Below, piece after piece: positions 50,583 through 56,291 of a stretch of DNA of 56,752 bases; the first letter of the stretch is position 1; each line of letters opens with the position of its first letter. Where the stretch lies: NCBI GenBank assembly GCA_030615745.1, contig JAUWYR010000013.1:1-56752 (forward strand), given 5' to 3'. Both the position numbers and the translations under genes were made by a program. This stretch comes from Candidatus Zixiibacteriota bacterium (lineage in GTDB: Bacteria; Zixibacteria; MSB-5A5; SM23-73-2). The notes beneath the pieces were generated by a model. It was not told the origin of the DNA. It did no database searches and was given only the letters and a program-made list of their open reading frames with translations.

Positions 50583-52307
50583 CTATTTCAATAACACTAA
50601 TTTTTTTGTCTGATAGGAATCTCCAACTTTTAGCCGGTAAAAGTAAACTCCTGAAGCAACATCTTTTCCAAAATCATCCTTCCCATCCCAGAGCACAGAT
50701 TTGTAGCCCGAAGACAAATGTTCGGAAACCAAAGTCCTTACCTTTCTTCCTAAGATATTATAGATGTTTAAGCTGACAAAACCTGAATTCGATAGAGTGA
50801 ATTCTATCTTGGTTGATTGGTTGAAAAGGTTGGGGTAGTTCTGGAAAAGAGTAAATTCAGAGGGTTTTTTTCTGTTTTCGTCCTCATCCTTGACATCAGT
50901 CATATCCTGATAGTATTCGCTAAAAGTAATAACATCTATAAAATCAGCATCCTGTTTGCTTCTTAAGTAATCACTGACTTCTTTAAAATCGTCATCATCA
51001 TATCCCCAAATGCCTGGGTTGGATTCAACTATATCATGGAACAAAAGAATTAACAGCTGACTATGCTTGATAGTATGGTCTATACTTGCTTTTATATTAT
51101 TGACTGGTGTAGAACCGTATATAGCTTTTACCTTCAGCAAAAATTCAGAATCACCTTCGACTGGAACGAGTGGTTGGTATTCGCCGTTTATGACACAACG
51201 AGCCAGCTTGTGATTTTCTTTCACCTCAGCAACGACCGCATCATTGAACGCACCAAAGGGGTAAGCAAAAAACTTAGCGGATTGAGGAAAACCATTGTTG
51301 ACCAGCCATTGGTATGCACCATTGACCTCCTGGTCTAATTCCTCAGCACTGCAATTTTCTAAGTGTGGGTGGCTTTCTGAATGATTTGAAATATCCCACC
51401 CGGCATCCCGTAAAGTTTCTAAGTTTGCTTCAGTCATATAACCTTTTAGTCCGAGCCAATCTATAACTACAAAGGATACTCCTTTCTGTCCATTTCCATC
51501 CATTATAGGCTTGGCTATATTTAGTACTGAAGCGCATCCGTCATCGAAATTGATTATACATTTAGCCTTAGCCTGATAGTTATATCTCAAATCGTCAAAG
51601 CTAACACTTACGGTGTTACCAACAGTCGCATCACACCTGACTTTTATCCGAATCATTGTGCTTTCCCAGCTATCGTTATCATCGTTTGTAAAAGCATCTT
51701 TATCAATTACAAGTTTATTCCAGCCCGACACCAAATACCCACTACCATCCCAAGCCCCACCGTCAATATTTATATAAAAGAACTTATTCCATGCTGGGTC
51801 CGAAGTAAGAAACAACGACAAATATTCCAATTTTTCTGCATCGCTTACGTAGACCCAGAGGATGAAATTAGTAGCTGATCCAAAATTTTGATTTATCGTT
51901 TTTGTAGAAAAAACTTCTCCCCCACACGGTGCGTTCAATTTTAGGCTTTGGTTACCTTCCTTCTTATGGTCAGTATCGGCTTCTTGTGAGTATCCCGGAT
52001 CACCACCTGCGTTCCAATCGTTGATATTTTCAAAATCCTCCAAAAGAGTTTCTTGAGCTCTTTCCTTTCTATCCGTATAAGCATGTATTCCTCTAAACCC
52101 AGTTGCATACAAACCATGTCCTGTCCCACTCCCCCAACTTTCTGCAGTCACACAGACGTTTCCAGAACCATCTACTGCTATGGCATCAGCATCATTGCAG
52201 TTTGCTGGTCCGCTGTTCCTTCTTATCCAAGGAGCGTCAATGGATTGACCAAAGACAGGGATATTGCACAAAAGCAAAATTAGTAAAATCAAAAACCTTT
52301 TGGTCAT
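50583..52307 (-). CDS. Secreted polysaccharide deacetylase with type IX-like C-terminal sorting domain
   Basis: A 574-aa exported enzyme. The signal peptide is about 1-20. A short SBBP-like propeller fragment follows (AIAVDGSGNVCVTAESWGSG). A carbohydrate-binding-like beta domain covers about 88-245. The NodB deacetylase domain is about 248-465, with CIINFDDGCAS (catalytic Asp, DD pair) and the zinc motif HSESHPHL. The C-terminus (about 490-574) is a sorting domain: FTLFQNYPNLFNQSTKIEF and SGVYFYRLKVGDSYQTKKLV. It should be surface-exposed and act on N-acetylated polysaccharide. An AAGGAGA site precedes the ATG, and a TATAAT lies on the minus strand at 52351-52346. Confidence 0.9.
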   Translation of the reverse strand: MTKRFLILLILLLCNIPVFGQSIDAPWIRRNSGPANCNDADAIAVDGSGNVCVTAESWGSGTGHGLYATGFRGIHAYTDRKERAQETLLEDFENINDWNAGGDPGYSQEADTDHKKEGNQSLKLNAPCGGEVFSTKTINQNFGSATNFILWVYVSDAEKLEYLSLFLTSDPAWNKFFYINIDGGAWDGSGYLVSGWNKLVIDKDAFTNDDNDSWESTMIRIKVRCDATVGNTVSVSFDDLRYNYQAKAKCIINFDDGCASVLNIAKPIMDGNGQKGVSFVVIDWLGLKGYMTEANLETLRDAGWDISNHSESHPHLENCSAEELDQEVNGAYQWLVNNGFPQSAKFFAYPFGAFNDAVVAEVKENHKLARCVINGEYQPLVPVEGDSEFLLKVKAIYGSTPVNNIKASIDHTIKHSQLLILLFHDIVESNPGIWGYDDDDFKEVSDYLRSKQDADFIDVITFSEYYQDMTDVKDEDENRKKPSEFTLFQNYPNLFNQSTKIEFTLSNSGFVSLNIYNILGRKVRTLVSEHLSSGYKSVLWDGKDDFGKDVASGVYFYRLKVGDSYQTKKLVLLK

Positions 52308-52701: not shown

Positions 52702-54324
52702 CTACTCCTCTAATTTTGAACCCTCACCCAAGGGTGACCATTCTCCAATATGCTCGGTGTAGATTTTGCACTTGCCCAATGAGGTCCATTTTTCGCTGGA
52801 ATTGTAACCCCACCCCAGATACTCCGAGCCTCCACCTCCTATTGTGGTTATCAGATACCTGTTGGCTAAGTGTCCGAAGGCTTTTGACTGGGCCCAGGGT
52901 GAAGGGCGGTCTCCTCCGGATGGGTCCACGGGTATCCATCCATAATTGGGAAGGTAGATCTCACACCAGCGGTGAAAAACCTCATCCAAGCTCGCATCGT
53001 CCCCTCGGATTGCCACAGAGCCGGCATATCTTGCAGGGATTCCGGATGCACGGCACAAAGCAATATAGACAAAACTATATTCTGAACAGGAACCTGAGCC
53101 CCTTTTTAAAACTGTAGGGGCAATATTCCATCCACCAGCTAATTCATAATGCATCTTATCTAACACAAAATTATAAAGCTTCCTGGCTATCCAGTATGGA
53201 TTTTTCTCAGAACCAAAAGCTTCTTCAGCAGATCTTTTTATGAATGGGTCATCTATACGAAATTTAGTGTCATCAATCAGATATTTCCTTTTTATTTGCT
53301 CTGGAATATCTTCTAATTTTCCAACTTTTTCTGGAAATATAAAATAGTCGGTCTGGTATAGGTTTGCTTTTGTTTTCATCGACACCCTTTTGAATTCAGT
53401 CGGTTTTAAACTCTTGAATCTAAAAAAGGCGACTTTCTGTCCCCATTTATCGATTAAAATATCTTCGGGCTGGGGCTCAAATTGGACTGAATCTAAAAGG
53501 TCTTGATTAGGAAGGTTCTCTGGGATAGCTATATAGATTTTTAGCTCTTTTATCTCCCCTGGTCCATAATTTCTGAACTCATGGGTATATTCTAAGGATT
53601 GACTCTTTTTCTCCTTTCTTTTTAAGACCTCTTCATCCTCGACTTTTATCTTATAAATGGTATCTGACTGATAATCCACATTCCACAGATACTTTCCATC
53701 CCAGGCTAATCCTCGTGCGTAGCTGTTCGGGGATTCGAAAGCAACGATAACTTCACCTTTATCCGGTGTTATCATAAAGATTTTATCTGCGATTCTGTCT
53801 GATACCCATAGATATTTGCCATCCCAAGAGAGTCCCTGAGGGGTAGAGGATGGAGAAGGAAGGGTAATAATTGTAGTCCCATCTTCCGGGGAAATCTGGT
53901 AGATTTTATCAGCTCTGCTGTCTGATACCCAGAGGTATTTTCCGTCCCAACAAAGACCCATAGGGCTGGATGAGGGACAATAGATTGTTTTTACTGCGAT
54001 CCCTGTTTTAGGCTCAACTTGATAGATTAAATTTTCCTCTAAGTCCACATTCCAGAGATATTTTCCATCCCAGGCTAATCCCGAAGGTCGAAAGCCTGGA
54101 GAGGATAAGGAATTTTTAATCTCTCCATTTTTTGGATCGATCTGATACAGAGTATCGGTCTTATGATCAGCCACCCAGAGGTATTTACCATCAAAAGTTA
54201 GTCCGGTGGGACAGGTTCCGGGTGAAGGAAAAGAGGATACTATATCGCCGGGAACTGAAAAGGACAGATTAAAAGTCAAGGCAATAAAGAAGAAAAGAAA
54301 AAAAATGATTTTAATTTTTTTCAT
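52702..54324 (-). CDS. Exported beta-propeller plus transglutaminase-like cysteine protease
   Basis: A 540-aa exported protein. The signal peptide (FFLFFFIALTFNLSFSV) is followed by five near-identical propeller units of about 43-46 residues, each with WDGKYLWVSD or WDGKYLWNVD. A linker strand domain covers about 230-370. The transglutaminase-like domain has the Cys in RGSGSCSEYSFVYIALCR, the His in EVFHRWCEIYLP and the Asp in GWIPVDPSGGD, so the triad is intact. The start at 54324 has a strong GGAGG site; a longer frame to 54387 has none. The promoter is at 54359-54387. It may cleave or cross-link surface peptides. Confidence 0.9.
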   Translation of the reverse strand: MKKIKIIFFLFFFIALTFNLSFSVPGDIVSSFPSPGTCPTGLTFDGKYLWVADHKTDTLYQIDPKNGEIKNSLSSPGFRPSGLAWDGKYLWNVDLEENLIYQVEPKTGIAVKTIYCPSSSPMGLCWDGKYLWVSDSRADKIYQISPEDGTTIITLPSPSSTPQGLSWDGKYLWVSDRIADKIFMITPDKGEVIVAFESPNSYARGLAWDGKYLWNVDYQSDTIYKIKVEDEEVLKRKEKKSQSLEYTHEFRNYGPGEIKELKIYIAIPENLPNQDLLDSVQFEPQPEDILIDKWGQKVAFFRFKSLKPTEFKRVSMKTKANLYQTDYFIFPEKVGKLEDIPEQIKRKYLIDDTKFRIDDPFIKRSAEEAFGSEKNPYWIARKLYNFVLDKMHYELAGGWNIAPTVLKRGSGSCSEYSFVYIALCRASGIPARYAGSVAIRGDDASLDEVFHRWCEIYLPNYGWIPVDPSGGDRPSPWAQSKAFGHLANRYLITTIGGGGSEYLGWGYNSSEKWTSLGKCKIYTEHIGEWSPLGEGSKLEE

Positions 54325-54389: not shown

Positions 54390-54427
54390 AATTTTAAAAA
54401 ATAAGTCCCTTAAAAAAGAGACTTATT
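54390..54427 (-). terminator. Intrinsic terminator of the small-protein operon
   Basis: On the minus strand AATAAGTC pairs with GACTTATT, extended inward by CTT/AAG past one mismatch around an AAAA loop. It is followed by six Ts. It lies after the 58-aa gene and before the next promoter. Confidence 0.75.
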
Positions 54428-54524
54428 AAAAAACTTGGGGATTTAGTTTGTCCTTTTAATATGTTATCTGAGAAGAAGGGTAAATTGTGACCTAAAATAA
54501 ATTCACTTTAAAGGTTTATCCTCC

Positions 54525-54614: not shown

Positions 54615-54791
54615 TTATTCGAATCTCCAGCAACTCAGCTGAGAAGTTGTCTTTTTGGACTGCTCAGGATCAGTTGATTTCCACTGACCTTGACTCATCC
54701 ATCCTCCATAAAAGGGAGAATCATAAGTTTTTTTTGTGGCTTTTGTTATCCTTTTTTTGGTCTTTGTCCTTTTAGTATTTTTCTTTTGCAT
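54615..54791 (-). CDS. Very basic small protein (58 aa), last gene of the CphA-N-like operon
   Basis: A 58-aa frame with ATG at 54791 and a good AGAGGTG site. It begins MQKKNTKRTKTKKRITKATK: the first 21 residues are almost all Lys, Thr and Arg. It continues SPFYGGWMSQGQWKSTDPEQ and ends SCWRFE. The basic leader and Gly/Trp/Ser-rich tail look like a short peptide rather than an enzyme. It is separated from the 68-aa gene by a 14-bp-arm hairpin (54809-54843) and precedes a terminator. The function is unknown; it could be a substrate of the HxxEH protein encoded first in the operon. Confidence 0.6.
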   Translation of the reverse strand: MQKKNTKRTKTKKRITKATKKTYDSPFYGGWMSQGQWKSTDPEQSKKTTSQLSCWRFE

Positions 54792-54808
54792 ATTTCACCT
54801 CTTTTAAA

Positions 54809-54843
54809 GAAGGGAAAGGGATGATTTAAATCCCTTTCCCTTC
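54809..54843 (-). other. Strong intercistronic hairpin
   Basis: GAAGGGAAAGGGAT and ATCCCTTTCCCTTC form 14 perfect base pairs around a seven-base loop (54823-54829). It sits between the 68-aa and 58-aa genes. On the minus strand it is followed by TTTAAAAG, which is a weak T-tract. It could be a leaky terminator, a processing site or a stabiliser of the upstream message. Confidence 0.85.
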
Positions 54844-54864
54844 AGTTTTTATAGGGAAAAGCCA

Positions 54865-55071
54865 TTAAGATTTTGGAGGTGTTGGCTCCTCCCAGTCGAG
54901 TGTGCCCTGTAATACTATTCTATACTCTCCTGTCTCGGTGTTCCAAGAATCCACTTTGCACCGGCATACTGTCGAGTTGAAAAGAAGATCTGTTATCCGA
55001 TGCTGCAAAGCCGCAGGAGAGGTCGGAGTCTTCTCGATCCAAGGAAAATTCTGGTATCTGAAGGTCTGCAT
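54865..55071 (-). CDS. Small paralogous protein A (68 aa) of the CphA-N-like operon
   Basis: A 68-aa protein paralogous to the one at 55149-55358. Both share LQ-x-RI-x-DL, a CK-x-DS pair, ETGEYR and GTLD-x-EEP at matching positions. This copy starts MQTFRYQNFPWIEK and ends EEPTPPKS. The ATG at 55071 has AAGGGGTGAA upstream; an in-frame GTG three codons earlier overlaps that site. No family is recognised. A 77-base gap separates the two copies. Confidence 0.75.
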   Translation of the reverse strand: MQTFRYQNFPWIEKTPTSPAALQHRITDLLFNSTVCRCKVDSWNTETGEYRIVLQGTLDWEEPTPPKS

Positions 55072-55148
55072 TCTGTTCACCCCTTTCTACTTTTAAGAGT
55101 TTTTCACTTCAAAAGGTAAGAGAGAGATAGAGATTGTTTAAAAAAAGT

Positions 55149-55358
55149 TTACCTGTTCATCCATCCAATATCTGGCTCCTCATGGTCCAGAGTACCATGC
55201 AAAATCACACGATACTCGCCGGTCTCAGGATTGAACGAATCGATCTTGCAACGTGCATAGACCGAAGAGTAGACCAGATCGCTTATTCTTGACTGCAAAT
55301 AGCTCGGAGAGTTAGGAACTCTCTCAATGGTCCTGAAATCATGCCAATTGAATCTCAT
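55149..55358 (-). CDS. Small paralogous protein B (69 aa) of the CphA-N-like operon
   Basis: A 69-aa protein, paralogue of the 68-aa protein downstream. It begins MRFNWHDFRTIERVPNSP and carries LQSRISDLVY, ARCKIDSFNPETGEYRVIL and HGTLDHEEP. The ATG at 55358 has AAGGGGGTG upstream and lies five bases after the stop of the 83-aa gene. An in-frame GTG at 55367 overlaps that stop. The sequence is compact, beta-rich at the end and without a signal peptide. The function is unknown. Confidence 0.75.
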   Translation of the reverse strand: MRFNWHDFRTIERVPNSPSYLQSRISDLVYSSVYARCKIDSFNPETGEYRVILHGTLDHEEPDIGWMNR

Positions 55359-55363
55359 CTCTT

Positions 55364-55615
55364 TCACCCCCTTTCCTCATTAAAAGATAATAAAATTTTC
55401 TCTCTCTTCCTGATTAACCCCTTTTTTTCTATTGAAAAATTTTTCAGACTAAATTCAGATCTTTGACAATTACAGCTTATCACAATCCTGTATCCAAGAT
55501 AATTTTCTGAATTATCATCTTTTTTTGTTTGGGTGCTCATCTTCTGTTCGAAGGAGATTAAATCCTTTATTTTTTTTCTGATATATTTTTTATCTGAGTT
55601 TTCATAATAATTCAT
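55364..55615 (-). CDS. Small hypothetical protein (83 aa)
   Basis: An 83-aa protein with a GGTGAGAAGAAG ribosome region before the ATG at 55615. It is rich in Lys, Asn and Ser (YYENSDKKYIRKKIKDLISF). A middle segment YLGYRIVISCNCQRSEFSL carries a CNC pair, and the end LIRKREKILLSFNEERG is basic. I recognise no family. It lies 13 bases after the CphA-N-like gene and five before the paralogue pair, so it belongs to one transcript. Confidence 0.65.
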   Translation of the reverse strand: MNYYENSDKKYIRKKIKDLISFEQKMSTQTKKDDNSENYLGYRIVISCNCQRSEFSLKNFSIEKKGLIRKREKILLSFNEERG

Positions 55616-55628
55616 CTTCTTCTCACCT

Positions 55629-56291
55629 TCAACTATCGGATGGTTCCAACTCTTCTTTAATAAAATATTTAAATTTTATTAAATCTTTAATCCTATCTTT
55701 TGTATAACTTTTTCTCCACCCAAAAAAAGAAGAGATTTTTTCTGGATAGAAGACTAAGGACGTATTATCGAAAATATATTTAGCCAGCTGAATTATTCTT
55801 TGGTGCCTTTTTGAAAGCCTTTTCTTAGATAAAAACTCTTTTAAAAGAAATAGGGAGAAATAACAGGAAAAACGAGCTACATTTTTCTCTTTGCATTCCA
55901 CAAAGAGGTCAAATCTGTTCAGAGGAATTTTATATCCGCAGGTGATTCCGCTTACCGTTTTCATCTGGGATATAAAGGAGACTAAATCGATTATCATATG
56001 TTCTAAAAGATGAGCAAGATCAGTTACGCCTCCTACCTCTTCAATTGGTAAATCTTTTTTTGCAAAGGAATCAAGGCTTCCGTATAAAAAACTCACACAA
56101 CATTTATGTTTATGCAAAGTGGGAAAAAGCCTGTGAATTTTTTTATAGAGCTTTTCGAAATTGATTTTTTTTGTTTTTCCCCGAGAGGAGATATCTAAAA
56201 CTAACTTGAGCTTAAGGCTTCCCGGTCTGAATCTTGGATTAAAATAAGATATCTCTGGGAATTTTCCGAATGATAGGTCTATAATCCGCAT
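55629..56291 (-). CDS. Stand-alone cyanophycin-synthetase N-domain-like protein with HxxEH motif
   Basis: A 220-aa protein. Residues 1-155 follow the N-terminal domain of cyanophycin synthetase CphA. The N-terminal strands (MRIIDLSFGKFPEISYFNPR, then LKLVLDISS) are followed by the key helix with DLAHLLEHMIIDL (HxxEH), aligned to the HIVEHVALEL helix of CphA. YKIPLNRFDLFVECKEKNVA and the helix RFSCYFSLFLLKEF come next. The ATP-grasp and Mur-ligase domains of CphA are absent; instead a C-terminal basic part of about 65 residues follows. In CphA this domain binds the polymer and has been reported to have a hydrolytic site. Here it may act on a peptide. It heads an operon of four tiny genes. Confidence 0.7.
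   Translation of the reverse strand: MRIIDLSFGKFPEISYFNPRFRPGSLKLKLVLDISSRGKTKKINFEKLYKKIHRLFPTLHKHKCCVSFLYGSLDSFAKKDLPIEEVGGVTDLAHLLEHMIIDLVSFISQMKTVSGITCGYKIPLNRFDLFVECKEKNVARFSCYFSLFLLKEFLSKKRLSKRHQRIIQLAKYIFDNTSLVFYPEKISSFFGWRKSYTKDRIKDLIKFKYFIKEELEPSDS

Follow-up and report, generated by a model that had tools for sequence, protein, structure and literature searches.

A free-standing homologue of the cyanophycin synthetase N-terminal domain encoded with conserved small proteins in Zixibacteria

Peptidase activity of the N-terminal domain of cyanophycin synthetase (CphA1), at an unusual Cys-His-His zinc site, was demonstrated only in 2022 (PMC9262961). A predicted operon in a Zixibacteria genome raises the question of what such a domain does when it is encoded as a protein of its own, next to several very small genes. 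The operon lies in a window of 56,752 nucleotides, this being the whole stretch of DNA that was analysed. The five minus-strand ORFs proposed for it in a first-pass annotation were all found to be real and conserved. The first gene (55629-56291) encodes N, a stand-alone CphA1-N-type (inverzincin, HxxEH) protein of 220 aa. The second (55364-55615) encodes P83, a fast-evolving small protein of 83 aa. There follow P69 (55149-55358; 69 aa from an internal ATG), P68 (54865-55071; 68 aa) and, as the last gene, P58 (54615-54791; 58 aa). The arrangement found in 18 genomes starts with N and P83, continues with two to four P69/P68 paralogues and usually ends with P58.

The unit had been described as closed by a single terminator, and this was only partly upheld. 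A stem-loop followed by a T-rich stretch, a candidate terminator, does lie past P58 on the minus strand (approximately 54398-54428; about 180 nt beyond the gene; z −3.4), but there is another strong stem-loop between the P68 and P58 genes (about 54809-54843), where a 71-nt stretch folds with −26.5 kcal/mol and a similar z of −3.5. The scan tool scored the P68/P58 stem-loop as terminator-like on the plus strand only, and no Rfam family match was found. The downstream neighbour (52702-54324) encodes a probably secreted protein with beta-propeller-like repeats and a transglutaminase-core domain (PF01841, E = 2e-20), and the product of 50583-52307 is a polysaccharide deacetylase whose C-terminal sorting domain is of the type IX secretion kind. 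In a sister genome (G001), where loss of the operon was considered, the matching contig breaks off right at the side facing the operon.

N and the CphA1 N-terminal domain are homologous. The family match made in the first-pass annotation is one on which PF18921, TIGR02068 and Foldseek agree. N scored 26.2 bits against PF18921 (E = 8e-6), which is 0.8 bits below the curated cut-off of 27 bits, and all 22 aligned relatives matched this family (best E 1.5e-11). The match to TIGR02068 (E = 8e-8) covers residues 29-171 of N and positions 21-150 of the 862 in the model; as annotated, the ATP-grasp and Mur domains are thus missing from this 220-aa protein. A sequence search of the PDB with N alone gave nothing significant. 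When the AlphaFold model of N (mean pLDDT 83) was compared with PDB structures by Foldseek, a check that the annotation had proposed, the top eight matches were all CphA1 (best E 6.3e-5, TMq 0.46-0.58).

The SuCphA1 N domain cuts cyanophycin using a zinc held by H79, H83 and C59, with E82 as the base and H57 and E87 as supporting residues (PMC9262961). By alignment, H57, C59, H79, E82, H83 and E87 correspond to H62, C64, H94, E97, H98 and D/E102 (D in the window protein) of N, which therefore shares with CphA1 the fold, the HxC and HxxEH motifs and the acidic residue four positions after the second His. The HxxEH residues that had been reported as kept (H94, E97 and H98) were unchanged in 34/34 homologues, and so were the C-H-H zinc site with its general base and, with H62 and D/E102, all six positions in the same set, where identity falls to about 30%. 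In contrast to the CphA1 domain, to which it is about 14% identical, N is free-standing and has 29 rather than 19 residues between the Cys and HxxEH. The floppy loop between C64 and H94, longer by ten residues, has low model confidence (residues 69-86). N also has an extra C-terminal helical domain (residues about 160-215), separate from the rest and modelled with high confidence. A few N members gave weak HTH matches (HTH_36 in three, best 0.017, not significant), and the domain is possibly a winged helix. The HxxEH helix is common to N and the M16 peptidases or inverzincins (pitrilysin, insulin-degrading enzyme), and substrate binding in an extended form is expected. However, fold matches to M16 were weak only (E above 0.1), and the third zinc ligand of N is an upstream Cys, whereas that of M16 is a downstream Glu, Asp or His.

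Our phylum sample comprised 133 Zixibacteria genomes. A TIGR02068 search that detects matches in control genomes found CphA1 above the family cut-off in 0/133; the best partial matches were mostly to the Mur-ligase region, which Mur ligases would be expected to give. This distribution argues that cyanophycin is not likely to be the substrate of N. The domain also occurs beside signalling modules. A 470-aa Zixibacteria protein (G103, L227:841-2253) has a CphA-N domain (PF18921 E 5e-21; H-C and HxxEH kept) fused to a response-regulator receiver domain, and in two KSB1 genomes (L098:6001-9059 and L099:1723-4415) a receiver-DUF4388 protein is encoded directly after the N homologue. These arrangements hint, weakly, at a regulatory use of the domain.

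Named relatives of N belong to Candidatus Zixiibacteriota and KSB1. They were recovered from genome contigs by an alignment-based search, where a single-protein scan had given none. N was present in 27/133 Zixibacteria genomes, P69/P68 in 21/133 and both in 19 (p = 8e-15; Fisher test on the 133 genomes, relatedness ignored). In 18 of the 19 genomes carrying both, representing eight families, N and P69 are neighbours. Flanking genes other than operon members are conserved within families only, and the linkage is therefore not a by-product of general synteny. The first-pass annotation was to be given up if N lacked a structural match to CphA N domains or if its homologues never neighboured the small genes; the match is present and the small genes are stable neighbours. 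Some loci depart from the usual layout. In family f2 the operon consists of N and P83 alone, without P69; no P83-type gene was found adjoining N in G026 or in the KSB1 loci examined; and at L164 the order is a different one, in which N comes last, after a gene for a helix-hairpin-helix protein with a WRFG end and two P69 genes. A viral origin was considered and rejected, as viral contigs held no relatives of N or P69 and there was no PADLOC and no significant PHROG match. With regard to known anti-phage defence systems, similarity searching gave no PADLOC model match at E 0.1.

The 69- and 68-aa proteins had been called paralogues, and they are 51% identical. P69 is the first copy of a small-protein family marked by the sequence TGEYRIVLQG and P68 a second, deeply diverged copy; they represent two old paralogous lineages that lie side by side across the class. 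P69 is conserved over most of its length. Residues S32, N43, T46, G47, E48, Y49 and G55 are invariant in P69/P68, and P69 is modelled as two short helices and a long beta-hairpin. In a close pair of genomes, P69 has a dN of 0.02 against a dS of 0.72. Purifying selection acts on the small genes in close relatives; every small-gene type had a dN at or below dS in close pairs. Searches of P69, P83 and P58 against Pfam, NCBIfam, PHROGs and PADLOC gave no significant match, and the possibility that P69 has a known fold was set aside after comparison with the PDB, BFVD (viral structures) and Pfam produced nothing significant.

P83-type proteins differ from one another in both length and sequence, and most of their ORFs start close to the N stop codon, often overlapping it. 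Their common feature is a short strand, YRIVISC in the window, which we write as Y-[RKA]-x-[VI]-L-x-C. The form Y-[RKA]-x-[hydrophobic]-[hydrophobic]-x-C was present in 21/21 second genes, as against 0/1212 size-matched other ORFs from the same loci and 0.013 on average in shuffles, although a looser form of the same motif had served in part to pick the P83 ORFs. Values of dN at or below dS were obtained here from close pairs with few changes, which are little informative. The strand is related to the TGEYRIVLQG strand of P69/P68; the likeness is short, and a profile search gave it no significance (best E 0.013 among 21 sequences). The idea that P83 is a divergent P69 was accordingly discarded.

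The start of P58 had been described as rich in Lys, Thr and Arg. P58 is indeed Lys/Arg-rich in the window, and its N-terminal part is basic in most relatives, but this is not conserved, the counterparts in L062 and L064 being acidic. The one feature common to P58-type proteins is a C-terminal [W/F]-x-F-[G/E], which is W-x-F-G in most relatives and CWRFE in the window. It was present in all 15 of the P58-type proteins found (0.09 in shuffles), which were selected partly by this motif; in three loci (L067, L069 and L073) no P58-type gene was found. A close pair gave a dN of 0.17 against a dS of 0.78. Two further ideas about the motif were dropped. As a genome-wide tag, WxFG marked no other convincing protein in the 10 loci inspected of 15 pattern matches in its own genome; and a prokaryotic ubiquitin-like tag (an FG or FGG end) is at odds with the lack of a ligase nearby and with the missing Gly in the window.

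There was a marked asymmetry in the ribosome sites. That of N is very weak (median anti-Shine-Dalgarno pairing −1.3 kcal/mol), and 7/22 N genes have a non-ATG start codon. In contrast, the site of the first P69 gene is near-perfect (median −12.7 kcal/mol; p = 2e-6 against N), and the later copies also have strong sites (−9.8 kcal/mol). This difference predicts that P69 would be abundant and N scarce.

The first-pass annotation proposed a system that either modifies or cleaves peptides. Cleavage is favoured, because all the catalytic residues of N are invariant; a modifying (RiPP-like) system is not supported, as the neighbourhood holds neither a conserved modifying enzyme nor a conserved exporter and P69 has no leader/core split. 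Since the operon is conserved together with its small proteins in genomes without a cyanophycin synthetase, N probably cuts those proteins or is controlled by them. The reading that we prefer, and hold tentatively at somewhat less than even confidence, is that N is a free zinc endopeptidase, present at a low level and not serving cyanophycin synthesis, that has the abundant small proteins of its operon as targets or as controllers. The recognition element of N could then be the extended strand Y-R-[IV]-[VI]-L that is common to P83 and the P69/P68 hairpin; this suggestion comes from the position of the motif and from the binding of substrate as an extended chain by CphA1 and the M16 peptidases. 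P69 and P68 would be folded, abundant partners. P83 may be a cysteine-switch inhibitor or a substrate: it would be a largely flexible carrier, and its invariant Cys just after the strand might occupy the zinc, by analogy with the same peptidases, or mark a cleavage site. The P58-type proteins would bring a further short motif, W-x-F-G, into the assembly. A fuller version, in which a freed (or ancestral) form of the primer-making CphA1 peptidase domain is held inactive by the P83 Cys, the P69/P68 hairpins, with their Cys-less copy of the strand, compete or are cut, and the outputs carry a WxFG tag, would be a new kind of peptidase switch; we regard it as a rather unlikely elaboration.

The CphA1 N domain binds its polymer as well as cutting it (PMC9262961), and N could instead be a non-proteolytic peptide-binding scaffold or regulator, with a structural zinc site, that gathers P69, P83 and P58, perhaps on DNA. 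The confidently modelled C-terminal helical domain with its weak HTH matches, the frequent richness of P58 in Lys and Arg and the occurrence of the L164 tail on a helix-hairpin-helix protein (E = 8e-10) would all suit such a role. However, a scaffold has no need of the general base E97, which is invariant in 34/34 homologues, the acidic P58 proteins of L062 and L064 do not fit and the HTH match is not significant; we think this reading unlikely, while giving it some weight. Another possibility is that P69 and P68 form a ring, fibre or shell on which P83 and P58 dock by short motifs, with N as a minor enzyme for processing or quality control. This would suit the shortness and good conservation of P69, its long hairpin and near-perfect ribosome sites, the retention of its two lineages together across the class and a distribution broader than that of N. 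Against this, comparison with known proteins gave P69 no fold match of significance, and we place little confidence in the assembly. A RiPP-like or signalling-peptide system, with the small ORFs as precursors and N as the maturation peptidase, seems distinctly improbable. The weakly translated peptidase does lie beside small paralogues in tandem that have strong ribosome sites, with two to four P69-type copies, but P69 is conserved as a folded domain and persists without N in KSB1, and modifying enzymes and exporters are not conserved nearby.

The KSB1 phylum, of which 82 genomes formed our outside sample, bears further on the tie between P69 and N. P69-type genes were found in 25/82 genomes and N-type genes in 11/82, one of the 11 being an 871-aa ORF that is probably a real CphA. 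About 19 KSB1 genomes and two Zixibacteria have P69 but no N. In several KSB1 genomes P69 lies some 450-820 nt upstream of N, flanked on the other side by a DUF2851 gene, and in lineages without N it is P69 that adjoins DUF2851. As P69 is commoner than N in this phylum, it cannot be solely an N substrate; P69 is therefore older than its tie to N, or more widespread than it, and its occurrence without N means that it has some N-independent role.

Other features were noted at these loci. P69-type genes and N lie repeatedly beside a DUF2851 gene at KSB1 loci L194-L200, L204-L206 and L209, and tandem P69 pairs at L159, L161, L202 and L207 are convergent with a primary-sigma-like gene. Orphan Zixibacteria P69 genes (L079:7163-7438, L081:6105-6332 and L078:7365-7592) are about 1-2 kb from HtrA-type protease genes; a linkage to HtrA (seen in G026, G035 and G050) was rejected, since the genes are in different orientation and the proximity may be chance. 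In G054, which has no N, a lone P69 is followed by a gene (L080:7048-8067) for a 339-aa histone-H1-like K/R/T repeat protein.

Within family f7, G046 has both N and P69, while G014, G023, G030 and G041 have no P69. In G014, G023 and G030, N is a fragment without the HxC ligands, and HxxEH is also gone in two of the three; G041 retains no more than a C-terminal remnant. This joint decay supports the suggestion that active N and P69 serve one process.

In ImmA/IrrE-type modules, a small metallopeptidase (HExxH) that includes an HTH-like part shares its operon with a partner gene. The N operon resembles them in layout by analogy only, as the peptidase is unrelated and the operon has no repressor homologue. 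RiPP precursor clusters likewise have small paralogous ORFs in tandem next to an enzyme gene; the N operon differs from them in having neither a conserved modifying enzyme or exporter nor a leader/core division. In the literature, we found no report of a free CphA-N protein in Zixibacteria or of a CphA1 N domain used outside cyanophycin synthesis. P69, P83 and P58 represent three conserved microprotein types for which the searched family libraries gave no significant match. The operon thus encodes a small free form of the CphA1 N domain together with candidate partners, in genomes without a cyanophycin synthetase, and this makes the origin and the original task of the domain testable.
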